Of a DNA stretch of 64,000 nt, positions 601-61,846 are shown piece after piece. The stretch is taken from positions 806,001-870,000 of the forward strand of contig NC_031674.1 in the NCBI RefSeq assembly GCF_001640025.1, written 5' to 3'. Source of the DNA: Sugiyamaella lignohabitans (taxonomy: Eukaryota > Ascomycota > Dipodascomycetes > Dipodascales > Trichomonascaceae). Numbering within the stretch: position 1 is the first letter of the stretch; each line of letters starts with the position of its first letter. The notes beneath the pieces were generated by a model. It was given only the letters and a program-made list of their open reading frames with translations, did not search any database and was not told the DNA's origin. The translations under genes were made by a program, and so were the position numbers.

Positions 601-736
601 GCCTCCGGCGGCTGGGGCTCCGCCCCAGACCCCATAGCTCCTGCTTCGCAGGAGTTGGCCAGGACCGTGGGGAGACCCGACTCGAGCAGAGCGAGAGGAG
701 CCGGGGGTCTGGGGCGCAGCCCCAGCCGCCGGAGGC
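601..736 (-). repeat. GC module R1, full two-arm element
   Basis: The left arm starts GCCTCCGGCGGCTGGGGC and ends in the perfect hairpin CTCCTGCTTCGCAGGAG (tail type A). The right arm is the inverted copy with tail type B (CGACTCGAGCAGAGCGAGAG) and ends GCCGCCGGAGGC. The A-core-B order is called minus here; B-core-A is called plus. The two arms have different three-base loops (TCC and GCA) inside the same CTGGGGC/GCCCCAG stem. It lies 172 bp before the PEX8-like start codon. Confidence 0.95.
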
Positions 737-908
737 ATTGGGCGTACGCCCAGTTACGGGGCCAATCGAGGATTGTAGAGCTGCTGCTGCTGCTCGGCCT
801 TCTGCATAACCGTGCATTATTGTCTTGTAGCTCTCGGCTCGGCTAATCGACTTCCCCAGATTTTATCCCCTACCACTGATCTCTATAATCAAGACACAGT
901 GCTTCATT

Positions 909-2876
909 ATGTCCTATTTAACGGATATCACTCAGGTGGTCGATAGTATTGTTAGAGAGCTTCAAAACAGTTCGATTTATTCGAGTTCAGGACCAGCTGA
1001 TTTAGCTCGACGAAAGGCCCTTATCGGGAGGGCGATCCAGTACCTACCATCATTAAGAAATGAACACAATGTTCCGCTATTAGCATTGGAACTGCTGTCT
1101 AGTCCAGTGGTAGCACTTCCTGAACCGGTTTGCAGCGACTTTTTGGTAGACGGATTCAGATCGGCTGTGGCTCGAAAGTATTCAATTAGCGATCCGACAA
1201 TTCCCCCGCAAGAGTGGACTAAGTATTTAGTACGACCTGTTATTGACAGATTGACAGCTGAAGGGGCTTTGTGGAGGATACTACCATTGTTATCAGGTTT
1301 AATCCAGGCTTCTAAATATGAGATTCTGGCAGATATTGAACGATCTGAGCGAGGTTTACGTCAGTCTAAAATCACCTATGTCCCTAGTGTGGCTGATTTA
1401 CGATACCAGCAAGATTGGTATGTTAGGGTGTTCAACCAGATAATAACTCTGCCCCTTGAGTCGGATAGTGATTATAAAAAATATCGGGATATTATAAACA
1501 TGGCATTGATTACCTTGGCTAAATGCCAATGGGCGTTGGATCCAGACGTTTATAGTCGTCTCGTGCATGCAGAGACTATCGTTCGATCTTTGCAACTGAT
1601 TTATTCGTATCCCGACACAAGTGTCATAAACTCGTTAAGATTACAATCATCACCTGTTATTGAACTTGTGAATAACCTTTTAGGAGGTTTTTCTAACATA
1701 ATTCGCCAATCAGTAGAATCCAACTATCGCAACAACCTTTCTTTTAACGATCTAGACCTAGCATTGAACCATATCCACATGTTCGCAGAAGATTTAAGTC
1801 GAACATGGGTGAGACTAAAGCATTCACCAGACTCAATTACAAAATCGGAGACTGAACAGTGGCAGATTTTAAAACAGTTTATATTTGCAATCTGCCTCCA
1901 GTTACAGGGATTCGCAGGTCTACTTTTACATGTCAATCGCCCAAAACTAGTTCCTGTTGCATACCTGAGTGCCAAGATTTTAAAAACCCTCTCTCCTGTA
2001 TATTTCATTCTCGACAAGATAGGCTCTGCTACTTTTGAACCTTTCAGTTTTACATACAATGTTTGCATCGATGTTCTTACTTTAAGTAGAGGCACATTGA
2101 GACAGGCACAAGAGTCTGTGGACTCTCTTATTAGAGCGTTGGCTGGTTCTTGCAATCTTGGAGCTGTCTTGGACAATGATATGGATCGAGGCAAAATTCT
2201 ATTCCTAATTGACCTATTCGAAAAATTAATCCACTTCAGCTCGTTTCAAGTCATAAATCAAATCATTCTGCCATTTATAGGAGAGTTTTTAGTCCCTAAT
2301 CGAGATCCTACAAATCGCAAGCTGTTGACGCCTTTACTAGAGTCATCTCACTCAGTTATGTTGCAATATCTTCGACTCAGTCCAGAGGTGGCTGTTATCA
2401 ATGATAATGTTGTAATGAATTATCTGGATACTCTGCTTGCTCTATTCCCTCACGATCTATCGAGTCCACAGCTATTGCTAGCACTAAAGACAATTGCTCA
2501 ATCTGTAGCAGCCCCTACTCGTCCTACAAAACAGTTGCTTCACCAATTCCTAGAACGACTGTATTTCAAATGTAAAATTACGCTACCTGCTATTCCATTG
2601 ACTACCAAAGCAGAAGAAAATGGCCCACCAACAGTAAGATCTGTTTTTGTTAGTAGCTTGATCCATTCACTCCCACTCTTAGAACCTGGAGATTTCCAAT
2701 TCTGGCTAGAGAGAACAGACAAACTCTTTCTTCGCCGTGGTCCTTATTACTCACCCCTGTTCCAGGCAGAAAATGAGTATCTAACAGAAGACATGGAAAA
2801 AATGATATCCGGAGAGCTGGATTTATCATTGGCTGACATTGGTATCCGGTGGTGGCACCACAGTTCAAAATTGTAG
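909..2876 (+). CDS. Peroxin Pex8-like intraperoxisomal import factor
   Basis: The 655-residue protein is almost entirely helical and leucine-rich, with no membrane segment or catalytic motif. It ends in Ser-Lys-Leu, a canonical PTS1 peroxisome-targeting signal. That combination of about 650 residues, a helical repeat-like fold and a C-terminal SKL/AKL is typical of fungal Pex8, which sits on the inner face of the peroxisomal membrane and links the docking and RING complexes of the matrix-protein importer. The start is the ATG at 909, with no upstream in-frame coding. The gene converges on MMM1 with only 65 bp between stop codons, the only convergent pair here without a GC module. Family assignment rests on length, C-terminus and general resemblance, so another helical peroxisomal protein is possible. 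Confidence 0.65.
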   Translation: MSYLTDITQVVDSIVRELQNSSIYSSSGPADLARRKALIGRAIQYLPSLRNEHNVPLLALELLSSPVVALPEPVCSDFLVDGFRSAVARKYSISDPTIPPQEWTKYLVRPVIDRLTAEGALWRILPLLSGLIQASKYEILADIERSERGLRQSKITYVPSVADLRYQQDWYVRVFNQIITLPLESDSDYKKYRDIINMALITLAKCQWALDPDVYSRLVHAETIVRSLQLIYSYPDTSVINSLRLQSSPVIELVNNLLGGFSNIIRQSVESNYRNNLSFNDLDLALNHIHMFAEDLSRTWVRLKHSPDSITKSETEQWQILKQFIFAICLQLQGFAGLLLHVNRPKLVPVAYLSAKILKTLSPVYFILDKIGSATFEPFSFTYNVCIDVLTLSRGTLRQAQESVDSLIRALAGSCNLGAVLDNDMDRGKILFLIDLFEKLIHFSSFQVINQIILPFIGEFLVPNRDPTNRKLLTPLLESSHSVMLQYLRLSPEVAVINDNVVMNYLDTLLALFPHDLSSPQLLLALKTIAQSVAAPTRPTKQLLHQFLERLYFKCKITLPAIPLTTKAEENGPPTVRSVFVSSLIHSLPLLEPGDFQFWLERTDKLFLRRGPYYSPLFQAENEYLTEDMEKMISGELDLSLADIGIRWWHHSSKL

Positions 2877-2941
2877 TATCTCATTCGTGAAATAGCAATA
2901 AATAAATACATATATGAGTAGAATACACTGTTACTATCAGT

Positions 2942-6733: not shown

Positions 6734-6869
6734 GCCTCCGGCGACTGGGGCTTCGCCCCAGTCCCCGTGGCTCCTCTCGCTCCGCTCGAGTCGTTACGTC
6801 GACGGTGCCAGCAAACTCCTGCGAAGCAGGAGCCACGGGGTCTGGGGCGGAGCCCCAGCCGCCGGAGGC
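6734..6869 (+). repeat. GC module R2, full element between KRI1 and ARP4
   Basis: The order is tail B, core, tail A. Two changes in the left arm (GCGACTGGGG and CCCCAGTCCC) lengthen the first hairpin stem from seven to nine pairs. It begins 57 bp after the KRI1 stop and ends 45 bp from the ARP4 stop. Confidence 0.95.
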
Positions 6870-6914: not shown

Positions 6915-8792
6915 TTAGCGGAAGCGTTTTTCGAGAAGTTTGGACACGCCGACTTCTTCGTACTCTTTTTTGGAGATCCACAGCTGGTGGAACGTGCCCA
7001 GACTGGCGAGGATGCTGCCACCGATCCAAGCAGAGAATTTACGCTCGATAAGGTTACCAGGAGCGTGGATTCGAATTTTGTAGCCCGGAAGTGCGTGAAC
7101 GAGGTCTTCGTTGACCCGGTCTGTGAAGCCTTGGATGAGTGAAGTGCCTCCTGTGATGATAACGTTGTTGGCGAGATTGGCTCGGATGTCCACGTCGCAC
7201 GAGTTGATAGCGTCAATGATCATGTCAGATATACCTGTGGTTGTAAAAGGACCTTGGGTACGGTCAGTGTAGACAAGTGCTTTGAGCTCTTTAGCAGCAG
7301 TAGCAGCAGACTTTTCAGTAGGCTTTTCCTTGTCTTTATCTTTATCACCGTCTTGTCCTTTGTCCTTACTGCCTTTGCTAGCCTTTCCTTTTTCTTTGTC
7401 TTTGCTGTCGGCATCTTTACCGTTTTCTTTACTGTCGTCCTTATTATCGTCGTCATCACCATCTTCTTCTTTTACTTCTGGTGCTTCCAGCAGCTCCTCG
7501 CCTTCTAATAGGAAATCGCGAGGTTTGAACAGTGGCTCGGCAACCTTGAATCTCTCCGAACCATACTCAACACTTGAACCATCGGGGAATTCAAACACCC
7601 GATTGCTATAAACATCAGTACCAGCCTGTGAAGCGGCTTCGTCAGTATATGGAGTGTCCTGCACCTGCGCCATTGACTCTTTGAATTCCTCTATCAGCCT
7701 CGATACTTGGAAATCATGGAAGCTAGCAGTCACTGGTGCTAGCAGTGAGCGCTTTTTATATTCAGTGGCCTTCTCGCCTGGTTCAAGACCCGTTTGGCGA
7801 GCTGCTACCAGATATCTAGGAGTAAGATCAAAATCTGATGCTTTAAGTAAAGCCTCAATATGCTTGTTGATATAAGTGCCAGCATGTCGAGACCGTTTAC
7901 TTGTTTTAAACAAAGTCAATCCATCTAGAACTGGCGTTACAGACGCAATATCAGCGCCAATGTCTACTACTAAACCACTACCTTTACCAGAAGCAAATAA
8001 TGTACAAACTGGTCTCTTGGCGATATAGAAAGCCGGTGTATCAAGCGATTCAAATGCGACTTCCATAGCCTTTTTGCGGTTTTCGTCAGTATTCCAAATC
8101 TGTTCTGTTATAAGTAGAGGCTGTTCAGTAACTTGAGCACCTAATATATCTTCTAAACCATATCTCCACAGTTTTTCAGTGGCATCCCAATCCGATACAA
8201 TACCATCAGTCATTGGCGATGCAATCTCCATCCCATCTCTTGGCGTATATAAGTTATTATCACCAAAATAGAAGAATTCCTTCTGATTAGAGGGAAGCTT
8301 CTGTTTTTTCACACGTGAATCGCGTAGTTCTTCATCGTCTCCATTCACAGCAGCCTCAGCAGACTCAGAATCTGCTTCACCATCCGGCTGTTTGCTCTTA
8401 GATTTGCCATTAATTACGCTGGATTCATCCTTAGCATCAGGAAGCAGTTCGGGATCATAGTCAGGATTGGGTCGTCTGCCAAAATATGTGGGAACCACGC
8501 CCTTTGGCGAGTCTTCACCAGCAAATCCAAACCGAGTCCACGCTGAGCCCTGGTCAATTACCAAAGCATTGACCTCATCTGATCCTGTTAGTATTCCCTT
8601 CAGAAATCCGAGCTCCAACAAAAGGAATCCTGTCCCATATCACCAAACATATCACCCGAGACTGTCGAAAGAACGACTCGACCGAAGCGAGAGGAGCCAC
8701 GGGGTCTGGGGCATAGCCTCAGCCACCGGAGGCAATCCTCCTCCCAGCATAAAAAACTTACCACCGCCATAAACAGCCGCTGAAGAAGCCAT
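6915..8792 (-). CDS. Arp4, actin-related subunit of NuA4, INO80 and SWR1
   Basis: Exons are 8762-8792 and 6915-8578, giving 564 residues that start MASSAAVYGGDEVNALVID, closely like the Arp4 N-terminus. The actin fold is clear: VIDQGSAWTRFGFAG near residue 16, the GLVVDIGADIASVTPVLDG phosphate-binding segment, NNVIITGGTSLIQGF, and the C-terminus SILASLGTFHQLWISKKEY. Arp4 binds nuclear actin and nucleosomes as a shared module of the NuA4 acetyltransferase and the INO80/SWR1 remodellers. A Lys/Asp-rich, low-complexity insert at about residues 375-435 sits where other Arp4 proteins also have a variable loop. The intron carries one GC module. It is divergent from MIC60 over 297 bp. Confidence 0.93.
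8579..8761 (-). other. ARP4 intron 1, 183 nt, carries a GC module
   Basis: The donor is GTAAGT after the 31-nt first exon. The branch/acceptor segment is TACTAACAGGATCAG, with splicing at the second AG. Using the first AG would insert Gly-Ser; the second restores the conserved Tyr-Gly-Gly-Asp-Glu-Val of Arp4. About one third of the intron is module R3. Confidence 0.88.
8674..8733 (-). repeat. GC module R3, solo 60-bp unit inside ARP4 intron
   Basis: This is a single B-type unit with several substitutions (CGACTCGACCGAAGCGAG; GGGGCATAGCCTCAGCC), which disrupt the first hairpin stem. It is one of the more decayed copies. In the gene's sense direction it reads GCCTCC first. Confidence 0.9.
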
Positions 8793-11212: not shown

Positions 11213-11349
11213 GCCTCCGGCGGCTGGGGCTTCGCCCCAGACCCCGCAGCTCCTCTCGCTTCGCTCGAGTCGTTAACATCTACGGTCCCAGCAATCTCCT
11301 GCTTCGCAGGAGCTACGGGGTCTGGGGCGGAGCCCCAGCCGCCGGAGGC
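11213..11349 (+). repeat. GC module R4, full element between MIC60 and TRF4
   Basis: The order is tail B, core, tail A, with arm loops TTC and GGA. It lies 46 bp after the MIC60 stop and 37 bp from the TRF4 stop. Confidence 0.95.
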
Positions 11350-11386
11350 CGGTCTGTTCGAGTCGGTAGTTGGGTCATGCATGCTA

Positions 11387-13852: not shown

Positions 13853-14975
13853 GTGTTGTGTTATAATGAGATGTGCGAGTGGCAGATGATGTACAAAATA
13901 GACCAATTAGTGTGTGTATAAGTACCAAGAAAAAAGACGATGCAAATTAAGTGTGAATAATAGAAATGCTTCACAACAAGTCCAGTTGTAAAGATTAATT
14001 ACCGTGTATGTTAGCAGGGATTGAAATAAATAAAATAATCAAGGTACCACGGGATGCCTCAAGTGGATCTGACGAATAAAAAAAAGTTATGCGAAAGACA
14101 GATAAATATGGGACCAATAAACAAAAGAAGTCCTCAGAAACCAGTTCACTGAAAGAAATATAAATACAACACTGGTCGGACTTTATCCAGGTTTTCAACA
14201 GTGAACCAATATAATTTAATGATACAGTCCCAGTAATTATTTCACGTCATGAATCAAATACGGCTGAAAAAAATCCAAAATGCAACTGCACGGCTTAGAT
14301 CGGAGAATTACAGTGACTCAAAGTCTCCGTCTCCAAATCTCCACACCCTCCACTTGACTTTTCCGCCTTTTTCATGATTTTATCATTCAATTTCAGTAGC
14401 GAGTATAAACCAGAGACCAAGAAAAGGAACTGGTTTTATAACCCAAGTAAACTGGACACCCCACGCCCGACTCGAGCGCAGCGAGAGGAGCAACGGGGTC
14501 TGGGGCGGAGCCCCAGCCGCCGGAGGCAAAAAACAGCCAAAACAATTGACCCCAAAAAAGTGGATCAATAGGAAGAATAATAATATAGAAATAACTGATT
14601 ATGTAAGGGATCATAAGCAGAGCATCGGGCCCTGCAGCAGCAACAGATAAATAAATAAAGCCATGCAGGACAATAGTGGGGTGGATTTAAGATCAGCGTT
14701 CGGTTGGACAGGTTACCAGATTCGCCAATAAATAATATTTTGTATCAAGTGGATTCAGGTGAGCAATTGAAAGCACCCACTTGGACTGACATCCGTCGCA
14801 TGGCTCTACGAAATAAACACAAAAGAATCAGATCAAAGAGGAAGAAGTAAACAAAATCAGAAGCATAAAACTATCAGAGACTCAAATCAGGACACAAAAT
14901 CACGTCCGGTATTTAGGTACGACAGTTGTCGGAACACATCCATTCCAGTTCATTGTTTGCTCGACCTAGCTCGCC
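13853..14975. promoter_or_regulatory. Divergent region TRF4/IKS1
   Basis: This 1.1-kb AT-rich spacer separates two divergent starts. Apart from solo module R5 at 14468-14527 I see no coding frame, tRNA or named regulatory motif. Confidence 0.6.
14468..14527 (-). repeat. GC module R5, solo 60-bp unit
   Basis: A B-type unit in right-arm orientation with a GCGCAGC variant of the tail loop. It lies far from both flanking starts (about 450 bp before IKS1). Confidence 0.95.
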
Positions 14976-17359
14976 ATGTCTTTGGTTCCATTCAATAATG
15001 GCAATAATCAGTGGGATGTGGTTCTTCAAGACAATTCGAGACGAGCAGTGGTTTTGTACGACCGGAGTTCGCATCGTATGACTGTCGTGAACAATGCAAG
15101 AGTGCTCAGTACAATAGAAAGAGTGGACAGTACGAACCATGGCGAACGATGTCTAAGTTGTGGTCAAATGATTCCGCCACAAAATAGACGTTCCGGCATT
15201 GGACCAGAACCTAGTCATACACATTATAACCCGGATCCCGACGAGTCTGGCATGAACGCCACGCCATTCCGGCAATTCACTCGGGATGCAAACTACTTCC
15301 AACTGCTAGAATATCGTAACGAGAACGAACCAGACACTCCACGACCGTCGTCTCCAGTGGTGTTTCCACTCGACACGCCGCCGCGGCGAACCCAGTCGCC
15401 GTCAGTGACCCCGGTGCCCGAACGGCGGCCGTCGTCTGGCATCTCGGACAGTGCGTTCAGTCCGGGCTATTTTGACAAGTAAGTGGGAATTTGAGAGATA
15501 TGAGCCTGCTGGGGCTCTGCCCCAGACCCCGTGGCTCCTCTCGCTTCGCTCGAGTCGGGCGTCGACGGTCTCAGCAACTCCTGCCAAGCAGGAGCAACGG
15601 GGTCTGGGGCAGCGCCCCAGCCGCCGGAAGCAGTACTAACGGTAGCGATAGGTTCTTTATTTCAAGTGCTTTGCTAGGAAGAGGTAGTAGAGGAGCCGTT
15701 TATTTAGTGGAGCACGTTTTAGACGGGTTTTCTTTGGGGTTTTTTGCTTTGAAGAAGGTGGCAGTAGGCGACGACCATGCGTGGTTGGAAAAGGTGCTGT
15801 CCGAGGTGAATCTTTTGAGGATGCTGTCACATCCGAATCTGGTGAGGTATAATCATGTGTGGCTCGAGGTGAGCTCGCTGTCGAGTTTTGGGCCGCTGGT
15901 GCCGTGTGCTTATATTCTACAGGAGTACTGTAATGGCGGGACTCTCGAGGAGTATATGATGAAAGGACGGTATAAACCAGGCACTGATGGAGAAAGCGAT
16001 ATTATTCCGCAGTTTCAGCGAGATCCGAATGACAGAACGTGGACCAAGAATGATATTAAGGCCAAACGTGATAGAATCAGACGGCGTATGTCACAGCAGG
16101 GCGCGGATGGTCAGGGTTATACTGATTTTAGCGGTAGAAATGGAGGGTCTATGAGTGCTGTAGTAGACGATAATGACGACGAATATGTTGCTGAATTGAC
16201 TATTGAAGAGATTATATCGTTCATGACAGATATTGTAATGGGCGTGAAGTATTTACATCAGAACCAGATCATCCATCGGGATCTGAAACCGAGCAATTGT
16301 CTGTTGTGTCGAATTCCCGGCCAGAGCTTGCCGACTGTTCTTGTCAGTGATTTTGGTGAAGGACAGATTGAAGGGTTAAATCGAATGGGCAGTGGAAGTA
16401 CTGGTACTTTGGAGTACACAGCACCTGAGCTTGTTCAGACAGTTAGTGGACGGTTTGTTGCCCAGTTTTCTAAGAAAACCGACGTGTTTTCACTAGGAAT
16501 GATTCTACATTATCTGTGTTTCTCAAGATTGCCATATTCAAATGTGTGGCAAGAACGAGGTGATCTTGAAGCGCTTACTGGAGAAGTCCGGCAGTTTGGG
16601 GGGTTCGATATCAACATCAGTAATAGTAAACTTCACCGTACAGACCTGGATCCTCAACTTCTTGCTCTTGTGGACGCCATGGTCTCGATAGATCCCGACA
16701 GAAGACCTACTGCTGACCAAGTGCTGTTCATACTGGGACAAGTAAATGAACGATATCGACAGCAGCAATTCCACCAAGCACAAACCACTGCCATGTCCAC
16801 TGCCTCACAAACATCACCACCACCCGCATCATCAACATCAGGAACATCAACAGCAGCAGCAACAACAACAGCAGTTCCAGAAATAACTACCAACACAACT
16901 GCTACATCCACATCTACAGCTCTACCTATAAACAGCACAACAGCCACACTGAGAATATCTGATACGTCGAGTTCACTTATGTCTCCTACACTGTCTCCAT
17001 CAATTAACACACCAGCGACGTCATCATTCGACATGAGCAGTTCACTCAGCTCGTCGCTCGTCCCCACTGTAATATATTCACCCGACCACCAGCGACCCAA
17101 CATGCTCCTTCGCTACCTACCAACCTGGATCCAACGACTCGCGATCAGAAACCGTCGTTCACCCCGCCAACTAACATCCAGCCTTCTCCTCACCAAAGGA
17201 ACACTCCTGCTCATAAAACTGGCCACGATCTACAAACTGGCACCCTCGCCATACACACAAGCAATTTACATGCTCCTCGGAGTCGAGCTGGCCACACTCT
17301 CCATCCCCGTCTCCATCGGACTCTTTCTCGCCCATCTCGTCCTGTACTCACTAGCATGA
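14976..17359 (+). CDS. Iks1-type serine/threonine protein kinase
   Basis: Exons are 14976-15478 and 15646-17359, giving 738 residues. The start MSLVPFNNG and the CLSCGQMIPP zinc-ribbon-like motif match the Iks1 N-terminus. The joint across the intron reads GYFDNDRFFISSALLGRGSRG, restoring the kinase glycine loop. Other motifs are FALKKVAVGDD (ATP-binding Lys), IIHRDLKPSN (catalytic loop), VSDFGEGQI (metal-binding Asp) and GTLEYTAPE. Residues about 590-650 are Ser/Thr-rich, and the C-terminus has hydrophobic helices that may anchor it to a membrane. The physiological substrate of Iks1 is unknown. Splicing rests on the kinase motif and on GTAAGT/TACTAAC signals, so it is secure. Confidence 0.92.
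15479..15645 (+). other. IKS1 intron, 167 nt, mostly a GC module
   Basis: Donor GTAAGT; branch and acceptor TACTAACGGTAG. The full element R6 occupies 15504-15631, leaving 25 bases before it and 14 after it, which contain little beyond the splice signals. Translating through the intron in frame would insert the module's Pro/Ala/Gly-rich peptide into the kinase. Confidence 0.92.
15504..15631 (+). repeat. GC module R6, full element inside IKS1 intron
   Basis: The order is tail B, core (CGTCGACGGTCTCAGCAA), tail A. The left terminus has lost seven bases (GCCTGCTGGGGC) and the A-tail loop is altered (CTGCCAAGCAG). The right terminus reads CCGGAAGC. Confidence 0.95.
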
Positions 17360-17379: not shown

Positions 17380-17513
17380 GCCTCCGGCGGCTGGGGCTCT
17401 GCCCCAGACCCTGTAGCTCCTGCTTCGCAGGAGTTGCTGGCACCGTCGACGCCCGACTCGAGCGAAGCGAGAGGAGCAGCGGGGTCTGGGGCGGAGCCCC
17501 AGCCGCCGGAGGC
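17380..17513 (-). repeat. GC module R7, full element between IKS1 and VPS21
   Basis: The order is tail A, core, tail B. It starts only 20 bp after the IKS1 stop. The inverted repeat continues beyond the usual ends: CCTCCGGGGTGG on the left answers CCACCCGGAGG on the right. Confidence 0.95.
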
Positions 17514-18246: not shown

Positions 18247-19053
18247 GTCTATGGCTGTGGCTGTGGCTGTCGATGTTGATGTTGATAATTCTGTGAGCAA
18301 TCTGAACTCACTTAATAACTAGTGAATGTGAAAATAAACCGGATGATGTATAGTAACAGTTTGGCAATCGACTGAGGAAGTTCCTGGCCTGCTGTTCAAA
18401 CTTCGGATAAAGAAAATATTCCCTCAGAACAAAAGAGGCAAAAATAGAGAAAACGACAGTGGATCTGGCTATAAAACTAGACAGATGATTCTAGTTTCTG
18501 TTTCAGTTCTAGAGTCTAATATCGATTGTCGAGATAAGAAAGCTACTGACTAGTCGGTTTGTTGATGTTGATTGCTGGGAACAAGGTGTGAGGATCGCTA
18601 GGGGTCTGCACTGGTGTGATCTCTCTCTCCTATCAAGTCAATCGTCGTCTGTAAACGCTATCGTCGTCAAAAAGAACAATCTTCTTGAATGAAAATATTC
18701 GGTTGGCACTTCTCCTCTACCGAACAAAGTAGATCGTTGAGATAAATTATCAGTCGAGTCGGATTCTCGCTGCTGATGCTTGCTTGTTATCAGAAATGGC
18801 TGGTTCCTGATATACGCAATCTGTTGAGACCGTCACCCACTTCTAATTTAGGGTTCAGGGTACACGCATGCGCGGCGCTACCGTCCAGTTATCAGCAGCC
18901 CTCTCCTCCCCTGGCCCCTCCCTCACCAACGGCAACGGGTCCCTATCCCAAACCAGACCTCAACCAGCTCCACTGCTCCACTGGGGGTCTGTTCTCCTTC
19001 TATCGGACCATTGGGCCACGTTCTGGGGTGACATTTCGCAGGGACGGGGGACT

Positions 19054-19193
19054 GCCTCCGGCGGCTGGGGCTCCGCCCCAGACCCTGGTTGCTCCTGCTT
19101 CGCAGGAGAGATGGCTGGGACCGCAGCGGACAACGACTCGAGCGCAGCGAGAGGAGCAACGGGGTCTGGGGCGGAGCCCCAGCCGCCGGAGGC
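19054..19193 (-). repeat. GC module R8, full element
   Basis: The order is tail A, core, tail B. The left arm carries CCTGGTTGCTCC in place of the commoner CCCCGTGGCTCC. It is 807 bp upstream of the VPS21 start and not close to a stop codon. Confidence 0.95.
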
Positions 19194-20002
19194 ACAGCCC
19201 ACACCCTAGCCCTTATCGAGATCTTATCAGGGTTTGAAGCAGGGGATCGGCAAGATGGCCGTTGGAAACCGTTGTTGACAGGACAGTTGTGACAAGAGCG
19301 GAGATTAGACTTGCTTAATGTGGTTAGTTTGTTGAAAGGGGGGTCTTGATCGGATTGTTTAGCAGTTGTCTTTCCTAGGCTAATTAGCTACACTTGTGAG
19401 ATCAGTCATATATGTTCTTTATCTTAACTGCATACGTTGTATTTCCAGCTACAAAACCCGTTCAAAAAGCTCGTCTATTGATATTTCTCACACAATCTAG
19501 AAGAAATGGTCAGTTCTAGTCAATTGAGCGTATTTACCTGCTCCTACTGTTAGATTTACACACTCACAGGAGTGATTTCATCACGGCTGGCACTTTGTAC
19601 CCCATCATCGAGGACTCGGATTTATCCGTGGTTAAGGGTTTAGAACTACTATAAGATAAATTTTTCAGATGATCCGGTTTGACTTCTTTTTCTCTTCTGT
19701 AACCAACAGTCAACCGGTAAGTCCAAGAAATCCATGACATCGCTTCAGAGACAGGTGGGACGTTTAATGATGATTGTTTTCTTCGCATAGTTCAACTGAG
19801 TGTCTCACTGACGAAATACAAACCATCTAAGTCTTTCGCTCCTATCTGAATTACGTCCCCCTGTTTCCCATTCTAGCGACTCTCAACACCCCGTCTGCTA
19901 CTGAATGCTAACAAAAACAGATCTTCTCCAGCATATCTCTGGCTCTGTAGTCTACGTAGTATAATACACTGGAGTGTCGAATCTCATGGGTGGGTGATCT
20001 GT

Positions 20003-20194
20003 CTCTGGCTGACGGGGCTCCGCCCCAGACCGCGCTGCTACTCTTGCTGCGCTCGAGTCGGGCGTCGGGGTTCACTCAGCTTTCAATCTTGGGGGAACAG
20101 CTTCAGCTGGACACCCTAATTCAAACGTGGCACGCCAGGTCGCTCGCGAAGCGAGCACAACGGGGTCTGGGGCAGCGCCCCAGCCGCCGGAGGC
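20003..20194 (+). repeat. GC module R9, diverged full element near TAE1 3' end
   Basis: The left terminus is degraded (GGCTGACGGGGC), while the CGGGGC-TCC-GCCCCAG hairpin survives. The spacer is longer than usual and unrelated in sequence. The right arm has the C-type tail CGCTCGCGAAGCGAGC. It ends 47 bp from the TAE1 stop codon. Confidence 0.85.
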
Positions 20195-21094: not shown

Positions 21095-21154
21095 GCCTCC
21101 AGCGGCTGGGGCTCCGCCCCAGACCCCGCTGCTCCTCTCGCTACGCTCGAGTCG
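21095..21154 (+). repeat. GC module R10, solo 60-bp unit
   Basis: B-type unit with GCCTCCAGCGGCTGGGGC at its outer end and CTCTCGCTACGCTCGAG in the tail (loop base changed). It lies 127 bp upstream of the TAE1 start. Confidence 0.95.
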
Positions 21155-21835
21155 TTGCATCTGCAGAGCTGACAACTCGGGGTAGAGGGATTTTGGATGG
21201 GAATTAAGCGGTTTTTTGGACGAGAGAAGGGGTGGGTGGTGATTTTAACGGTGTTCAGGGTTCGCAAGGCAAGACCACACCCACTGGGTATGCTCCTAAC
21301 GGGGGTTGACTGGTTTTGATGCTTTCTCACAATCACTGAGCTAGCTCAATTTTAAATGAGACAACTGATTTTCAAGAATGAAGTCTTAAAGTTTGAAATG
21401 AGCCTGGTTTCAAGGCTTCAGATCATCGGGAAGGCAATTTTCACCGGGGTAAATGAAAAGATCTGCATTGTTATAACCGGGATCGATCCATCGACGCTGT
21501 GAATAACTGTGATAATCGAGCGAGATGTGATGTGTGTGATATTTGACGATGAACCTGACTGGGTAATTAGTGGGGTGATAAACAGATCTGAGCTAAGCTG
21601 ATGGTACTAGCAACTAGCAAGGAAACAAGTCAATTGGAACGATCGTTGCTAATTAGCGATCAAAAGTAAACCGCACTACTGCTCGCAAACGAACAAACGA
21701 GAAGGAAAAAGTATGACCTCTCACTAGAAAAGGGGAAAAAACACATACCCCCACCAAGCCCCCGCCGAGTCCCCTGAAAAAACCCCAAAACCCAAAATTC
21801 CCCTGAAACCCAAAATCGCCGTCCCCCCGACGCCC

Positions 21836-40614: not shown

Positions 40615-40674
40615 GCCTCCGGCAGCTGGGGCTCCGCCCCAGACCCCGCTGCTCCTCTCGCTTCGCTCGAGTCG
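40615..40674 (+). repeat. GC module R20, solo 60-bp unit
   Basis: B-type with GCCTCCGGCAGCTGGGGC. Flanking bases after the tail (TTACGTCGG) resemble the core of full elements, so this may be a truncated full copy. Confidence 0.95.
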
Positions 40675-41063
40675 TTACGTCGGGGACGGCCTCAAAAATA
40701 AACATTTCAACATAAGACCACCACTATTTTTAAAATACCCTAAAATAATAAGAGAAATGCCCAGCAGACGAGTGACTCACCAGCTTCTGTTCACTACCAG
40801 CTGCTCATAGCAATCGCGGCCAAAATATTCTCTTCTAAAAACAGGCAGTGAAGCAATTAAAGATACGCCACCAGTGATGGAGGACTCGTGGTCTATACCA
40901 ATTTACGACAAATTTGACCTTCAGCCGACTGAAGAGAGCCCTTAGAGGGGAATATGACACAATTCCAGCAGCTATGACACCTTTTATTTCCCAATCTTTC
41001 GCGAGTAATCAAATGAGCGGTTACTCCAGTTAGCCGAGTCGGGAGCGAAAACGGTCCCAGCAC

Positions 41064-41123
41064 CGACTCGAGCGAAGCGAGAGGAGCAGCGGGGTCTGGG
41101 GCGGAGCCCCAGCCGCCGGAGGC
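41064..41123 (-). repeat. GC module R21, solo 60-bp unit
   Basis: B-type, right-arm orientation, 522 bp upstream of the SDS3-like start. The bases before it (ACGGTCCCAGCAC) match part of the full-element core, again suggesting truncation. Confidence 0.95.
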
Positions 41124-43092: not shown

Positions 43093-43152
43093 GCCTCCGG
43101 CGGCTGGGGCTCTGCCCCAGACCCCGTGGCTCCTCTCGCTTCGCTCGAGTCG
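43093..43152 (+). repeat. GC module R22, 60-bp unit after SDS3-like gene
   Basis: B-type with TCT loop, 91 bp after the stop codon. It is first of a three-unit cluster (left, left, right). Confidence 0.95.
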
Positions 43153-43173: not shown

Positions 43174-43233
43174 GCCTCCGGCGGCTGGGGCGTTGCCCCA
43201 GACCCCGTAGCTCCTCTCGCTTCGCTCGAGTCG
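43174..43233 (+). repeat. GC module R23, 60-bp unit
   Basis: B-type in direct orientation to R22, 21 bp later. The loop is GTT, found nowhere else in the window. Confidence 0.95.
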
Positions 43234-43296
43234 GGCGTGGGGAGTGGGCACAAACCTTTTCCTGCTGTCCAGCGAATTCTTTCCACCCCCCAAGCC

Positions 43297-43356
43297 CGAC
43301 TCGAGCGAAGCGAGAGGAGCCACGGGGTCTGGGGCAGAGCCCCAGCCGCCGGAGGC
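43297..43356 (-). repeat. GC module R24, 60-bp unit
   Basis: B-type, right-arm orientation; with R23 it makes a B-B inverted pair without an A tail, as in R28. Confidence 0.95.
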
Positions 43357-46634: not shown

Positions 46635-46687
46635 GCCTCCGGCGGCTGGGGCGCTGCCCCAGACCCCGTTGTGCTCACTTCACGAGC
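46635..46687 (+). repeat. GC module R25, C-type unit after KTR
   Basis: 53-bp C-type unit with GCT loop and an imperfect tail (GCTCACTTCACGAGC), 56 bp after the stop codon. Confidence 0.93.
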
Positions 46688-46705
46688 TGTCGCTGGGGGT
46701 CGGAT

Positions 46706-46755
46706 GGCTCCGGCGGCTGGGCTCTGCCCAGACCCGTTGTAATCGCTTCGCGAGC
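46706..46755 (+). repeat. GC module R26, short-stem unit
   Basis: A direct, shortened relative of R25: stem CTGGGC-TCT-GCCCAG and tail ATCGCTTCGCGAGC. It starts GGCTCC rather than GCCTCC. Confidence 0.85.
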
Positions 46756-46917
46756 TGCTTCCACAGTGACAGCAACTGTGAAGTTGCCAGTAAACGCTAT
46801 TTATCTTAAAGAGTGTCGTAACAGAAGAAGGACCTTTCCCGCCCGAGAAACACGAATCCAGCAGCTGCGAAGGCCCCTCAGCTGTCGTGTCATGACAGAA
46901 CAGACCCACCCAGAAAA

Positions 46918-46967
46918 CTCGCGAAGCGAGCAACGGGGTCTGGGGCAGCGCCCCAGCCGCCGGAGGC
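46918..46967 (-). repeat. GC module R27, C-type right arm
   Basis: The tail CTCGCGAAGCGAG faces R25/R26, and it ends in GCCGCCGGAGGC. A GAA repeat follows 12 bp later. Confidence 0.93.
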
Positions 46968-46978
46968 AGCAGTGCCAC

Positions 46979-46991
46979 GAAGAAGAAGAAG

Positions 46992-47021
<30 letters not shown>
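46979..47021 (+). repeat. (GAA)n microsatellite
   Basis: About 14 uninterrupted GAA/AAG units. It lies 91 bp from the RPN4 stop and is likely within its 3' flank, where it would be transcribed as a pyrimidine (UUC) run if read through. Confidence 0.95.
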
Positions 47022-47023
<2 letters not shown>

Positions 47024-47111
47024 TTAATTAATGCATTGAGGGGGGTAATAATGATATATAATAAAAAATAATTAGTTAATAAATGGCGATGCCGCTGCCA
47101 GGCCGCGAGAT

Positions 47112-49566: not shown

Positions 49567-49737
49567 GCCTCCGGCGGCTGGGGCTCTGCCCCAGACCCCG
49601 TGGCTCCTCTCGCTTCGCTCGAGTCGGTATGCCATGGTCCCCAGCAGCACCCAATCCCCCCTTAAAACGACTCGAGCGAAGCGAGAGGAGCCACGGGGTC
49701 TGGGGCAGAGCCCCAGCCGCCGGAGGCAGACCCTCCT
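49567..49737. repeat. GC module R28, B-B inverted pair
   Basis: Both arms are B-type, with the unusual spacer GTATGCCATGGTCCCCAGCA and an A-rich segment between them. The inverted repeat continues outside: GGAGGGTCT on the left matches AGACCCTCC on the right. Confidence 0.95.
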
Positions 49738-50622: not shown

Positions 50623-50758
50623 GCCTCCGGCGGCTGGGGCTCCGCCCCAGACCCCGTGGCTCCTGCTTCGCAGGAGACTGCTGGGACCGTCGGCGCAACG
50701 ACTCGAGCGCAGCGAGAGGAGCCGCGGGGTCTGGGGCGCAGCCCCAGCCGCCGGAGGC
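50623..50758 (-). repeat. GC module R29, full element upstream of RAD3
   Basis: The order is tail A, core (CTGGGACCGTCGGCGCAA), tail B. The right arm has loop GCA and GAGCCGCGGGG. It ends 243 bp before RAD3. Confidence 0.95.
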
Positions 50759-56612: not shown

Positions 56613-56745
56613 GCCTCCGGCGGCTGGGGCTGCGCCCCAGACCTCGCTGCTCCTCTCGCTCTGCTCGAGTCGTTACGTCTACGATCCCAGTCTCCTGCGA
56701 AGCAGGAGCAACGGGGTCTGGGGCGCAGCCCCAGCCGCCGGAGGC
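56613..56745 (+). repeat. GC module R30, full element between amidase and transporter
   Basis: The order is tail B (CTCGCTCTGCTCGAG variant), core, tail A. The two arms have matching loops TGC and GCA. It is 55 bp after the amidase stop and 40 bp from the transporter stop. Confidence 0.95.
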
Positions 56746-56785
56746 AGCACCACAGGAGAAGTAAAACAACTGAATTAACACTAAA

Positions 56786-58387
56786 TTAATGGGCTACATG
56801 TATAATTTGGGTCTCGGCAGCCTTGATGTAGGCACTGGCTCCCTTCTTACGGAGAGCTTTGCCGCCGAATATCATGATCAAAAAGGTGAGCCCGGTAACC
56901 AGGCCGAGGACGGCAGCCACGATGAAGGTGTTTTGCAGACCGGAGTGGTTGATCCAGGGGGTGATGGCGTAGTTGATGCCGAAAGATAGGGTGTTACGGC
57001 AGAGAATGACCGATACCAGAGCTTCACCTGAGATGTCCTTGTAACAATCGATCAGGTAAGAGAGCGAGAAAGAGCCGGCAAGGACGTTGCAGATGGATAC
57101 AAAGGCGGCACCAAAGAGAAGACCGATCCAGTGCACCTCGTGAGCAGCTCCAACACCCCATAGGATAAGACCCGAGGGCAGCAGGATATTGTAGAGAACA
57201 AGACCCCACAGTCTCTGTTCGGGCTCTCTAATACCATTGTTTTTCCTGGCAAGCGAAATGGCATAGTAGTTGACGATGGACCAACAGTACAGACCACCAA
57301 TGATTGCACCGATCAGAGGTGCAAGATATGACAACCCAACACCGTCACTCGAGAAGTTGTATGGCGGAGCGGACAAAATAGCAGATGAGGTGGCATTAAA
57401 GACATTGTACCACACCAAACCGAAACCGTAAAAGACACCAGCCCATGCGACAATGGGGAAGCGGAAGAAGAAATAAACGGGTCTCCACACCATGTCAAAG
57501 AAACCTCTCTTGGTGACTAATGGGTTCACCCTCCAGAGCTTCATCTTCTGTAGGTAGTTCATTTTATGACTGTAGTCGAGGTTTCTGGGACTGTTGACAG
57601 TGATCATATGGCCATATTTGTCCTCGTCGCTACCCTCAACATGCTCAGCTTCCTTTGTAGTTCTGTTGAACATTGTATCTTCATAGAAAAAGAATGCCAA
57701 AATAAAGTTGAGAGCCAACAACAGAGCACACCAGTGCTGCACCCATTGCCATCCAATTGACTCGTTCATGTATCCGGCAATCAAGGGAGCAAGGTAGTTG
57801 GAACTGGCAAGAACAAGCATATAAATACCCATCCAAGCTGATCGTTCATGACTGAAAAACAACTCGGCAATACACTGTTCAGGAAGTACCTCAACAGGAG
57901 CCACAAAAGCACCTAGTAAACATCTACAGGCGGCCCAGGCACCGTATGATGAGATGTGAGCAGCCCATTCCGACATGGCTACACAGCCAAGAATACTGAA
58001 TAGAAATACAGGACGACGACCAAAAGTCAGAGCCATTGGTTGCCAGATTAAATTAGTCCAGCCAGCAAGCAAGAACAGATAACCAGTACCATTATTCAAC
58101 TGAGCAATTGTGATACCAGTGGCTTCAGAGATGGGCACTAGAATGGAATAGGTACTCGTTCCAGCAATACCAGTGGTAAATGTATAGAACAAGACCAAGG
58201 ACAAGTTGACGATCTTTCTAATTTTCGTCCAGTTTAATGGGTCATCTGGATCATTAGAAGGCTGGGGATATAAAATCAGGTCGCCATTTGACGACTTGTT
58301 TTCCCAGTTGAGAGTTCCGGGAACTGCATCCCAGGAAGACTGGACTTCCAGAGAATTTTCAGTGGCAATATTATCCGATTTGGACAT
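56786..58387 (-). CDS. Hol1-type MFS transporter
   Basis: The protein has 533 residues from the ATG at 58387. An Asn/Asp-rich cytosolic tail has the NDPDDPLNWTKIRK motif that precedes helix 1 in the DHA1/HOL1 group. Twelve membrane helices follow, with LAGWTNLIWQPMALTFGRRPVFL (the A-motif region) after helix 2 and a central loop of about 70 residues. Hol1 in Saccharomyces imports polyamines and other cations; many fungal paralogues have unknown substrates. Convergence with an amidase does not establish a shared pathway. Confidence 0.82.
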   Translation of the reverse strand: MSKSDNIATENSLEVQSSWDAVPGTLNWENKSSNGDLILYPQPSNDPDDPLNWTKIRKIVNLSLVLFYTFTTGIAGTSTYSILVPISEATGITIAQLNNGTGYLFLLAGWTNLIWQPMALTFGRRPVFLFSILGCVAMSEWAAHISSYGAWAACRCLLGAFVAPVEVLPEQCIAELFFSHERSAWMGIYMLVLASSNYLAPLIAGYMNESIGWQWVQHWCALLLALNFILAFFFYEDTMFNRTTKEAEHVEGSDEDKYGHMITVNSPRNLDYSHKMNYLQKMKLWRVNPLVTKRGFFDMVWRPVYFFFRFPIVAWAGVFYGFGLVWYNVFNATSSAILSAPPYNFSSDGVGLSYLAPLIGAIIGGLYCWSIVNYYAISLARKNNGIREPEQRLWGLVLYNILLPSGLILWGVGAAHEVHWIGLLFGAAFVSICNVLAGSFSLSYLIDCYKDISGEALVSVILCRNTLSFGINYAITPWINHSGLQNTFIVAAVLGLVTGLTFLIMIFGGKALRKKGASAYIKAAETQIIHVAH

Positions 58388-61186
58388 GATCTCGCCTGTG
58401 TAATTGGTGATTTTGAAGTTTTTCACTTGCCTATTAATAATATTAATGAAGCAACAAGTGTTTTCAGATCAGAAATGTTCTACTGTCTGAACGTCCTATT
58501 GTCCTAAGGTCCTAACGGAAGACACAAATTAGAACTTATAAGAAAGAACAGCAAGTATACAATAGTACCACTCGCAACGAACCAACAGAACAGAACCACA
58601 AGTCAAGTAAGTAATGTAGTAATGTTACTAGTGATAGAAGTGTTTGGAGTATTTCACGAAGTTCACTAAGTAGCAACGACACTAGTAATATATACCAGGA
58701 TCAATAATTAGTAAAGTCAAGAAAAACTGAACAAAAAAAAAGAATACTAATCGACTAATAAAACAAGCAGAGCACGGTAACAGAATAGGCTCATGACAGA
58801 TATATTTATACAAATGACAGAAATAGGGAGCTGAACAGGTCGGTCACTTCAACTGCTCAGTTAATGTACAAGGTCCTTATCGGTTATTTTAAATTCTCTC
58901 TATCGATAGCCGCATTTAAGCTGGTAAATGCACGCTTGGACTGTACTTGCTTTTTGACTTGCATGATACTTTTTCACTAGTATGGAAAAAAATGAAAACT
59001 GATTTAACTGGATTCACCATCTAGTAAAGATACCAACGTTTTCCTATCAACGTTGTCAGCTAATAATTGCTTCACCGCTGACATAGTGGCTGAGTTGATA
59101 TCTATCCCAATTCGATATTCGGCTATCTGTCAGATGATAATGATAACGACACCGAACTGATAGATAAACCATGGTCAATTTAGGAATGCAATCATGAAGG
59201 CAAATGGAAAAAAAATAAATTAAAAATACGCTAAAATTCAATCGTTCCAGTGATTTTGGTATGATTTTGTCCTGTGAACAGAATGACTAGTTCACGTTAT
59301 TGTGTGAATGTGGATTCTGTTTTTGGCGAAATATGCAATATCCCCCTGTATGCAATCTCCAACCTGGCGGTCCCTGTGATGTCTGAGGCGACTTAATCCC
59401 ATGTGAGTGGGGTAATCTGGGCCCTGGTCTTGGGTTCATGTAGCGTTAGCATATACGATACATGGGTAAGACCATCGCGCCCTAATGCCGGCCGAGAAAG
59501 CATGGGACCGAAAACGATATTTTATTACAGTCAATTGCTATCTTATCTTGAACCCCATAGTTTAGTAGCGGGGAAAAAACTGCTTCAACCCCTTAATGTT
59601 TTTTTTTCTGAAAACGGAAACCGATCAAAAGAGATTTCATACAAATATTCCACATCTCAGCTTGGGCGTTGAACGGAGTTTCTTTTCCGGTTGGGTGGGT
59701 ATCGTGCATTTGACGCTCATTTCCGCGCTTAAGCGAGACATGTCTTGAATATTACCCCACAGATGCACTAGATGCACCCGTACCTTGTTTGGCGTACATT
59801 AGCGAGCGCTTGACTTCCCTGCATATAATATTTGTTAACTTTCCTTTTCTGGAAGTGGAGTCGTTATCTGTAAAGATGATCGTGCATCGCAAAGGGGGAT
59901 GAAAATCCCGCTGTCTGACGTACATGAGGATATCTTCGCACTAAAGATAAAAAAGAGACAGCAGCTGTACATGTCAAACACAGATTAGCTACCTATCTTA
60001 GAATTCGCTCGTTCTTCGCTCTTATCTTAGCACACTTATCAGCCCGTCCTTATCTTTGATATGTGAAAATGTAGAAATCCGCTGGTTCGAAAGCTTACCA
60101 ATTATTCACACTTGAACAGTTGGAACGACGCACGCGGACAGACTTGAATAGCAATCAAGTTTGTTGTAAAGTATACGACATCCCGGTATTAGGTTTATTC
60201 AGACATAAGACTTTTTTTGTTCCGGTATCGGCTGAATCTTAAAATACACCACCTGAGCTCTTCTGACCAGAATCGACCCCACGCTTCTCGGATCACCACG
60301 ACAATCAGCCCCATATAAGGGCCTGCTACGCTACGAGCCGCTGGTTAAACTATTGCCAGACCCTTACCGCTATCTTATCGGGCTCCAACGGCCTTGCTTT
60401 AACCACATCCAGAAGCGCAGGGTCCGGTACCCGCCTTTGTCGCCCTCTTGTAATGCCCGAATGGCTACACTTTTTGTTCTTATAACCAGTCCACTCCCTG
60501 CTGACTCGGCATACAACCCACAGACCCTCGCAATGTCACATACCCGGAACTCCGACCCTGTCCACGAACCTTCCCTCTCTCCTTACCTCACAAACCGGTT
60601 TCTACGGCTTTTCAATGGGTTCTTTCTCTCTACAGCGGTCGCTGGAGACAATGACTGGGGGTGGGCTGCCTCCGGCGGCTGGGGCTCCGCCCCAGACCCT
60701 GGTTGCTCCTGCTTCGCAGGAGGTTCCTGGGCACCTCGACGCAACGACTCGAGCGTAGCGAGAGGAGCAACCAGGGTCTGGGGCGGAGCCCCAGCCGCCG
60801 GAGGCAGCCCACCCCCCGTGAACAGCCCTAGCCGCTATCGTGCGTTATCTCGGGTCCCTGGCCGATCTCATGGACCCTGGATTTCGAGGTGCGGCTGAAA
60901 GAGGACAGTTACCCTACGGCGCGCGATGCACCAATGAAAAGTTCAACATTTGTTTGAATCTTTCGAGAGAGTGCTTGGTGCTGTAGGCTGGTATTGACAT
61001 TCAGTAAACAGGACAGTGGATAAAGATCAATCGAATCGGATCCGACCTCGTATTTGAACTGCCCATACTCATTTGATAGTGCTTCGAGTTATTAAAAAAA
61101 TTGTGTTTCAGGTGGTTGTAGCTTGAACATACAGGGACACATTCGCGTCACATCTCCCTTGCATTACCACTTCACAACTATACAAA
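58388..61186. other. Long spacer HOL1-type to NDUFA8
   Basis: This 2.8-kb divergent spacer is AT-rich in the left part. It holds full module R31 at 60668-60805. The ORFs at 59403-59672 and 60353-60898 lack recognisable features, and the second runs through the module. No RNA gene was seen. Confidence 0.5.
60668..60805 (-). repeat. GC module R31, full element with extended palindrome
   Basis: The order is tail A, core, tail B. GGGGGTGGGCT before it and AGCCCACCCCC after it are perfect complements, extending the inverted repeat by 11 bp on each side. It is not close to any stop codon. Confidence 0.95.
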
Positions 61187-61699
61187 ATGTCTACTACTAG
61201 AGAGCCCAATTCTGACTACGCGGCCTATGTCGACCAAACCCCTATGCCATCGCATATTCCAGATGTGCCTGAGATCGGTGCCACCTCTGCTCCTCTGAAA
61301 TCGGCCTCGTTCTTCATCGGCGCCAGATGTTTGCCCTATAACGACGACTATATCATGTGTAAACAAGAAAGTAAAGGAAATGGCGAACTCGACTGTCTTA
61401 AGGAAGGTCGACGAGTGACGAGATGTGCTATTTCTGTTCTCGAGGATATCAACAAACACTGTCTCGAGGAGTTCAGACTGCACTGGCAATGCTTAGAACA
61501 GAATAACCAACAATTCTGGGGATGTCGTCCTGCCGAGCGTCTGTTAAACAAGTGTGTATTTGAAAAGCTGCAATTGGAGAAGAAGATTCCTCAAGTCTCT
61601 AGCGACAACCAAATTCACTTGAAGAAGAACCCCCTTCTGAAGCCCAACACTGAGGACTATGCATCGGTCGCTGCCGCCAAGCGCGGAGGTGTTTTGTAG
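61187..61699 (+). CDS. NDUFA8 (NUPM/PGIV-type) subunit of mitochondrial complex I
   Basis: The 170-residue protein has the twin CX9C pattern of the family: CLPYNDDYIMC, then CLKEGRRVTRC and CLEEFRLHWQC, then CRPAERLLNKC. These cysteines form disulfides through the Mia40 pathway in the intermembrane space. The SAPLKSASFFIGARC lead-in is typical of NDUFA8. The subunit lies on the intermembrane-space face of NADH:ubiquinone oxidoreductase. Its presence shows that this yeast has a proton-pumping complex I. Confidence 0.94.
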   Translation: MSTTREPNSDYAAYVDQTPMPSHIPDVPEIGATSAPLKSASFFIGARCLPYNDDYIMCKQESKGNGELDCLKEGRRVTRCAISVLEDINKHCLEEFRLHWQCLEQNNQQFWGCRPAERLLNKCVFEKLQLEKKIPQVSSDNQIHLKKNPLLKPNTEDYASVAAAKRGGVL

Positions 61700-61794
61700 A
61701 TAACAAACTGCTTGGTAGCCTAATCATTTATTTAAAAGCATAATTCTAGATCTCACTTTCTGTCTGGCCCTTTTCTGGAGCGTATATTTTGACT

Positions 61795-61846
61795 CCTGAG
61801 GCTGGGGCGCTGCCCCAGACTCCGTTGTGCTCCGCTTGGTGGAGCT
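61795..61846 (+). repeat. GC module R32, degraded unit between NDUFA8 and CTF4
   Basis: The outer end is worn (CCTGAGGCTGGGGC), the CTGGGGC-GCT-GCCCCAG stem is intact, and the tail keeps a GCTCCGCTTGGTGGAGC hairpin with different bases. It lies 95 bp after the NDUFA8 stop and 74 bp from the CTF4 stop. Confidence 0.85.

Follow-up and report, generated by a model that had tools for sequence, protein, structure and literature searches.

The nuclear genome of the yeast Sugiyamaella lignohabitans contains a family of short, GC-rich palindromic units, which are mostly used as inverted pairs with heads outward and which, where sampled, occur in excess at the 3′ ends of genes. It is described here from a stretch of 64,000 nucleotides (the window; C2:806001-870000 of the 15.93 Mb, four-contig genome G000, published as 16.0 Mb in four chromosomes; PMC5499181) and from comparisons with the rest of that genome. 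We favor the explanation, with a probability of roughly 0.5, that this is a non-autonomous, hairpin-based mobile (copy-spreading) family of the yeast nucleus, built and behaving like the doublets of bacterial repetitive extragenic palindromes (REP), known as REPINs (REP doublets forming hairpins) or BIMEs (bacterial interspersed mosaic elements). By analogy of design, the units look like a eukaryotic counterpart of REP/REPIN; membership of the REPINs themselves fails on the transposase, the tag and the conservation of doublets.

A preliminary description of the window, made from its letters, had placed units at 32 sites. The family is real but this count was too low, as an iterated nucleotide profile (score ≥12 bits) recovers 46 units, and the 18-mer GCCTCCGGCGGCTGGGGC on which that description relied occurs 35 times exactly (15 on the + strand and 20 on the - strand) and 40 times with at most two mismatches. 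Each of ten Markov-shuffled windows gave 0 matches to this 18-mer. The whole-genome search that had been proposed, run with the head pattern GCCTCCGGCGGCTGGGGCNNNGCCCCAGACCC, returned 2,670 + 2,692 = 5,362 exact heads, against 0 + 0 for the reversed control; together with the shuffles, this rules out chance or plain GC composition. In a sample of 304 kb of the 15.9 Mb (the window, 200 kb of C1, and 20 kb each from C3 and C4), 275 units were found at a score ≥12, with 209 exact pattern matches, and extrapolation from this sample gives about 7,000 units for the whole genome, or one per 2.3 kb. Their density is uneven: 210 units in the 200 kb of C1, 46 in the 64 kb of the window, and 6 and 13 in the 20-kb stretches of C3 and C4, respectively. 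The 275 units include a few hairpins called on both strands; 261 could be anchored, the other 14 being dropped because they lay at the ends of stretches or had more than three mismatches.

From outside to inside, each unit comprises a degenerate G-rich leader of about 14 bp, then TGCCTCCGGCGG, a hairpin of the form CTGGGGC-nnn-GCCCCAG, ACCCC, a variable neck, and a tail that forms the second hairpin. The positions from GCC to ACCC are 95-100% conserved, the three-base loop excepted, and even this loop has few variants (TCC 131, TCT 41, GCT 25 and TGC 18 among 232 perfect stems). Three main types of tail are distinguished among the 261 anchored units: type B (CTCCTCTCGCTnCGCTCGAGTCG) in 151, type A (CTCCTGCnnnGCAGGAG) in 66, and type C (GCTCGCttcGCGAGC type) in 22, the remaining 22 having other tails. 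The length of exactly 60 bp previously attributed to B units, measured from GCC to CGAGTCG, holds for 23 of the 25 in the window (the remaining two measure 59 and 61 bp) and is common to paired and solo units. The outer edge is sharp at TGCC and the inner edge at CGAGTCG, which is 97-100% conserved in solo and paired units, the first base past the B tail being conserved at 62% in the former and 53% in the latter; on the other hand, the degenerate leader precedes the outer edge, and the B tail is followed on its inner side by a degenerate, patterned stretch, in which a run of G reaches 83% in solo units. Base pairing between the leader and ACCCC was rejected, as a tally gave no clear association. 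A known RNA family was also rejected: at gathering thresholds, Rfam gave two small nucleolar RNAs in the window (snR60 at 19755-19861, between elements, and snR49 at 35433-35602) and none on the units.

The orientation of adjoining units was tallied for typed units with a score ≥30. Where no gene model intervenes, the arrangement is +- in 99 cases, -+ in 51, ++ in 21 and -- in 16; across a gene, it is -+ in 46 cases, +- in two, and the same orientation in 14. From these counts, the units are mostly used as '> ... <' pairs with heads outward. The commonest element consists of two inverted units, heads outward, around a short core, about 135 bp in all. A-B pairs are tight, mostly with 20-30 bp inside, and B-B pairs lie 45-715 bp apart. 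When + and - units at most 800 bp apart are merged, the sample contains 109 pairs and 55 single units; tight pairs number 58 (60 called, minus two hairpins called on both strands). The window holds 12 tight inverted pairs, 10 of them A-B, which agrees with the approximately 13 loci of two inverted units reported earlier, and the core between them matches the one given at that time. Two features had escaped notice. Most units of the 304-kb sample that do not belong to a tight pair have a more distant partner, again in the '> ... <' arrangement, and the elements are preferentially located at gene 3′ ends, with about one element per short convergent spacer (see below). A free-standing 60-bp solo mobile unit was rejected, since many apparent solos have an inverted partner 45-715 bp away.

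Within the 47 tight A-B pairs, identity between copies reaches 92-94% in the heads and 97% in the tails, whereas the core (19-43 bp) is only 53% identical, against 39% when shuffled. By eye, its usual form contains GGGACCGTCGACG. Among the 50 inner sequences of at least 40 bp, one local duplicate pair is alike throughout and four further matches are short and terminal; in addition, a degenerate GGGCGTGGGGGTCC motif is visible by eye at the start or end of many inner sequences, beside the B unit. A composite transposon with captured cargo was rejected, as inner sequences are hardly shared and as the inner DNA of a copy in an exon (see below) is old coding sequence. All three pairs tried fold as one long hairpin, with z from -8 to -11 as DNA. 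Between the tandemly duplicated loci L009 and L010, the tail-hairpin loop changes between GAA and TTC, alongside one other change in the stem, and 4 of the 82 tail loops sampled are inverted. Inversions of this kind, few as they are, would fit with a palindrome that undergoes extrusion or is copied in its hairpin form.

The elements of the window are as follows (A, B and C denote tail types, > and < the two orientations).
601-736: A> B< tight pair, heads outward, about 136 bp; one long hairpin when folded
6734-6869: B> A< tight pair, between convergent Kri1-like and actin-related genes
8675-8733, - strand: single B unit, in a candidate intron (8579-8761) upstream of an actin-related frame
11213-11349: B> A< tight pair; A hairpin loop inverted (GAA)
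14468-14527, - strand: single B unit
15507-15631: B> (truncated head) A< pair, in the protein-kinase gene intron 15479-15645 (GTAAGT ... TACTAAC ... TAG)
17380-17513: A> B< tight pair, between convergent kinase and Ras-family genes
19054-19193: A> B< tight pair
20003-20194: B> ... C< pair, 3′ of a methyltransferase gene
21095-21895: B> ... B< wide pair, 685 bp inside
23121-23179, - strand: single B unit
24674-25149: B> ... B< wide pair, 3′ of a SecY/Sec61-like gene; contains a 44-bp tail duplication (24708-24795)
27570-27620, + strand: single C unit, between convergent DEAD-box and eRF1 genes
29375-29509: B> A< tight pair
37442-37579: B> plus variant-tail partner <, 15 bp past a stop codon
40099-40149, + strand: degenerate unit
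40501-40558, - strand: single B unit
40615-41123: B> ... B< wide pair
43093-43152, + strand: B unit, 3′ of an Sds3-like gene
43174-43356: B> ... B< pair
46635-46967: variant > (degenerate >) C< group, between convergent genes
49567-49727: B> B< pair
50623-50758: A> B< tight pair
56613-56745: B> A< tight pair, between convergent amidase and transporter genes
60668-60805: A> B< tight pair
61793-61834, + strand: degenerate unit, 86 bp from the end of a Ctf4-like gene

The duplication at 24708-24795 is a tail-plus-core piece of a B unit repeated head to tail and, given the 100% identity of its copies, is probably a recent event. A CTT/GAA microsatellite (46968-47111) lies between the stop codon of a zinc-finger gene and its unit.

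For placement relative to genes, 102 open reading frames (ORFs) of at least 150 aa were cut to 81 models: frames shorter than 200 aa were left out, as were unit-containing frames shorter than 300 aa, a filter that favors the result 'unit outside gene' but not 'one per spacer'; a filter on codon usage was too weak, losing genes with Pfam domains, and was not used. In the window, 20 gene models were compared with Pfam, and 19 of them have domains of the kind found in ordinary nuclear genes. Unit density is highest 50-200 bp past stop codons, at 6-10 per kb versus about 1.2-1.5 beyond 300 bp. A unit lies within 250 bp 3′ of 61 of 80 models, when moving the element blocks at random within non-genic DNA gives a mean of 17.1 and a maximum of 31 in 1,000 trials; on the 5′ side, the figure is 17 of 80 for a null mean of 18.4. 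Judged against this random placement, units are in excess at gene 3′ ends and are not clearly depleted at 5′ ends. A 3′ unit is present for 15 of 20 genes in the window, and for 25 of 30 and 17 of 21 in the two halves of the C1 stretch. All 13 convergent spacers of 100-400 bp carry exactly one element. For the 60 genes that have a unit in sense orientation at most 250 bp away, the median distance from stop to unit is 46 bp; the DNA between them is 56% AT and contains a motif like a poly(A) signal in 20 of the 60 genes, versus 15% in shuffles. This filling of gene ends suggests a role as a two-way transcript boundary.

The same placement is what would be seen if the units were an immobile host cis-element, gene ends requiring a GC-rich inverted repeat (a bidirectional terminator, a roadblock or a stabilizer of mRNA 3′ ends) whose sequence selection keeps site by site. 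The 3′ excess, the single element per short convergent spacer, the motif before the unit and the conservation of units beside a degenerate core would all fit with it, as would the poorer state of units within 400 bp upstream of starts (mean of 1.14 head mismatches, n = 36). In Saccharomyces cerevisiae, short inverted repeats are found near poly(A) sites, most with low nucleosome occupancy (PMC6420913). These resemble the present family in standing at gene ends, but they are of AT-rich and A/T-tract types (PMC6420913), whereas the units are homologous to one another and GC-rich. We nevertheless regard an immobile host element as unlikely. Units at gene ends and in other intergenic DNA do not differ in intactness (means of 0.44 head mismatches, n = 78, and 0.44, n = 147; p 0.92), units are present in introns, where a terminator would do harm, and units are lacking within 400 bp of 17 of 79 gene models, among them two retroelement frames (C1 stretch 57850-62288), one with a reverse-transcriptase match. 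In addition, selection on structure does not demand that loop and neck variants be so few. The equal intactness at gene ends and in other intergenic DNA makes the sameness of units look like the result of copying or homogenization within the family rather than of selection at each gene end; the small number of loop variants and the core and neck variants shared by neighbors (see below) agree with this.

The preliminary description had considered the units mobile or copy-amplified. Copy number, discrete variants and copies in introns and in an exon fit with this, but the dispersal it envisaged turns out to be tied to gene 3′ ends. Among 18 candidate introns, called mechanically by splice motifs and some of them perhaps not real, six hold units. 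In the gene of a DHX35-like protein (named PRP22 by NCBI), a unit lies in frame within an exon as an insert of about 29 residues, absent from nine relatives. Compared with the nine aligned relatives, the same protein (L020/L021, C1:1098352-1100556) has GVYTE in place of GKTTQ and EDFHER in place of DEAHER; lacking the GKT and DEAH motifs, it is probably not an active helicase. Under the reading favored here, thousands of copies would have been made, probably by trans-acting machinery working on an intermediate folded as a single strand or a cruciform; elements would then have been kept mainly where they are harmless or useful, just past stop codons and about one for each gene 3′ end, and the long inverted repeat there would serve as a transcript boundary in both directions.

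Miniature inverted-repeat transposable elements (MITEs) are short, non-coding and bounded by terminal inverted repeats. Head-out pairs have the form of such repeats and are likewise short and non-coding, so that a conventional MITE family, with terminal inverted repeats of 60-75 bp and mobilized by a DDE transposase with a preference for the open chromatin found at gene ends, has also to be weighed. This insertion preference would account for the placement, and two DDE_1 loci are present in the genome. The flanks of pairs also share slightly longer direct repeats than mispaired controls (mean score 6.34 vs. 6.01, p 0.047; repeats ≥8 nt in 5 of 58 pairs vs. 3.2%). This excess, however, has no consistent length or place, units do not bound either DDE_1 locus within 3.5 kb (units are absent from L038, and the pair and the single unit of L037 all lie on one side), and strictly conserved terminal repeats around a core of 53% identity would need long-lived internal drift. 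The family further differs from MITEs in that no autonomous partner was found and in its placement of one element per spacer. A MITE origin is, in our estimation, somewhat less probable even than an immobile host element. Inverted flanks are not significantly extended (p 0.086). Of the seven protein families searched genome-wide, two gave matches, reverse transcriptase (13) and DDE_1 (2). MULE gave 0 matches in the S. lignohabitans genome, as did hAT and Helitron, in searches without a positive control, and Piwi/Argonaute (PF02171), whose control was positive in one archaeon only; with no Argonaute found under that same limit, a role of the units as a hairpin source for RNA interference was set aside for the present. 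Strand-specific (RNA) mutation bias in the stem was rejected, there being no signal (G>A 9 times on the 5′ arm vs. C>T 7 times on the 3′ arm).

Core variants are shared among nearby elements (p 0.02), and neck variants among neighbors at 0.9-3 kb on C1 (p 0.001) and at 3-8 kb in the window (p 0.0015). Palindromes are natural break sites, and the units could be old dispersed repeats kept alike because hairpins frequently undergo ectopic gene conversion with one another, while transposition is now rare; units that are alike around cores that are not, and the neck variants that neighbors have in common, would both follow. Alone, this process gives no account of one element per short convergent spacer, nor of how some 7,000 sites were first reached, and local clustering of the loop variants does not reach significance (p 0.06 on C1 at 0.9-3 kb, and no clustering in the window). 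Of the explanations for the units considered so far, we find it the most improbable.

Several of the results weigh against a mobile family of REP design. The loop variants just mentioned are among them, as is the sharing of neck variants at 8-20 kb on C1, which is below chance. A lone unit folds no better than its shuffles (z -1.5 as DNA, -0.7 as RNA). Units of tight pairs are no more intact than other units (mean head mismatches 0.49 vs. 0.57, 120 vs. 141 units, p 0.41), in a comparison where the others are often members of wide pairs rather than true singlets and where four of the 120 come from double-called hairpins. As the preliminary description had already remarked, there is no clear target-site duplication: none of consistent length or place was found in 58 pairs, for lengths of 2-10 and offsets of 0-19. 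No empty site was seen in the sequence examined, that of one genome. The Y1 transposase (PF01797), partner of REPINs, has 0 matches in G000, with control matches in 5 of 14 genomes. On C3 and C4, only four of nine genes have a 3′ unit. Between the two units of the copy in the exon lies old coding sequence, which implies that units can also arrive singly.

Short palindromes with conserved tags, in high copy and with inverted doublets that fold into one hairpin, are characteristic of REPINs and BIMEs (PMC3116915; PMC3733652). Bacterial REP elements are mostly intergenic, chiefly between unidirectional and convergent ORFs (PMC3733652), and the yeast units are also mostly intergenic. In contrast, the yeast family sits in a eukaryotic nucleus and is made of two-hairpin units with several tail types; its tags are GCCTCCGGCGGC and GACCCC, with the end profile TGCCTCCGGCGG, where REPINs have GTAG or CGTC; no Y1 gene was found in S. 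lignohabitans; and the better conservation of bacterial doublets over singlets is not seen in the yeast doublets. Mitochondrial GC clusters such as GC42 are also short, GC-rich, mostly intergenic palindromes that proliferate and whose loops change more than their stems (PMC4478555). They are mitochondrial, however, whereas the units lie on Mb-size contigs among nuclear genes; a putative AG target duplication is reported for them (PMC4478555), when the yeast pairs have no consistent one; GC42 measures 42 nt; and the available part of that source describes neither gene-end placement nor head-out pairing (PMC4478555). The resemblance to MITEs and to GC clusters drawn in the preliminary description does not extend to membership, as each fails on a tested feature. 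In design, the units come closest to bacterial REP doublets, and their sequence tags are found again in bacteria. REP and REPIN elements are usually regarded as bacterial, and GC clusters as organellar; a family of REP design in a nucleus, concentrated at the 3′ ends of genes, would offer a natural system in which to test how selfish palindromes turn into regulatory boundaries, whether a repeat can standardize gene ends, and whether such repeats cross between domains.

Among the papers listed on palindromic nuclear yeast families, on S. lignohabitans and on the bacterial counterparts, none was found to describe this family, although a prior mention in the genome paper of the species, Bellasio et al. 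(2016), is possible. Similarly, no description of the tag was found in either orientation, judging from titles and abstracts; the main text of the RepRanger paper contains neither GCCTCC nor GGAGGC (PMC12306157), and that of the genome papers of Trichomonascus vanleenenianus and Blastobotrys adeninivorans does not contain 'palindrom'.

An exact search for the 28 fixed head bases in a genome collection of 84,980 prokaryote species gave four stretches, three from Desulfovibrionaceae and one from an Acetobacteraceae metagenome-assembled genome (MAG). One of them (L040) contains the 33-nt yeast consensus head letter for letter. In these four genomes, the pattern GCCTCCGGCGGCN{4,34}GACCCC matches 98+99, 4+7, 171+158 and 47+47 times, with 0 for the reversed control, i.e., 11-329 copies per genome, in which the tags GCCTCCGGCGGC and GACCCC are set by the pattern and the stem varies. 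Among 289 genomes of the class of the MAG, six have any match and only the MAG has more than one; single matches there are at chance level, since the reversed control matches once in seven genomes. These repeats share with the yeast units the outer and inner tags around a stem, mostly GGGG/CCCC, and likewise form, in part, head-out inverted pairs with variable inner DNA. In Solidesulfovibrio (G001), 12 of 12 neighbors within 300 bp are +- among the matches listed; a one-mismatch copy at L039, 93 bp from another in the same orientation, is an exception to the head-out rule. Their leaders are unlike those of the yeast, being often AG-rich in Solidesulfovibrio, and neither the yeast tails A, B and C nor the yeast core was seen in the bacterial copies examined by eye. 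Bacterial Y1 genes flanked by heads were rejected: Y1 has matches in three of the four genomes, and a head is present at none of the six loci returned.

In a virus collection, 31 of 132 matches (a few later loci included) have a stem of at least 4. Head-out pairs of 126-128 bp, with 56-58 bp inside, are present on five of its contigs, with four distinct inner sequences:
L093, 4354-4479
L114, 408-533
L131, 11788-11915
L137, 7169-7296
L159, 3104-3229
In four of these five pairs, both heads have the same loop; the inner sequences are unrelated, L093 and L159 being near-identical copies. A plasmid source was rejected, as the 126-bp L093 element is unmatched and the 33-nt head is fully covered in one plasmid, at 86% only; so was a phage source, for which the best coverage is 88% at 86% identity, in two records of one phage.

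Tags of this length (12 and 6 nt) on either side of a hairpin, found in three groups, are hard to account for by convergence. A shared structural cause may nonetheless be involved, since Streptomyces plasmids, too, have GC-rich hairpins with GACCCC after them, over 22 nt. That the yeast units and the GCCTCCGGCGGC-hairpin-GACCCC repeats form one family, which crossed from bacteria to the yeast nucleus, grew there to about 7,000 units and became a normal two-way mark of gene ends, is a tentative proposal that we hold to be doubtful. If true, a bacterial REP-like element would have been turned into the 3′-boundary system of a eukaryotic genome. The 22 nt in question, CTGGGGCTCCGCCCCAGACCCC, are a part of the head common to Streptomyces plasmids (H4, H7-H17), and most of these rows lie under a helix-turn-helix gene.

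Two further observations concern the genome at large. Ten of the reverse-transcriptase matches are full-length and in long open frames, some of them identically scored (including C1:1059499, C1:3056215, C3:656590 and C3:703545), which suggests a recently active element in S. lignohabitans, similar to the long interspersed nuclear elements. In addition, open frames of 100-150 aa cross GC-rich units (515-817 and 18776-19237 in the window, and similar cases), and automatic gene finders may report them as proteins.

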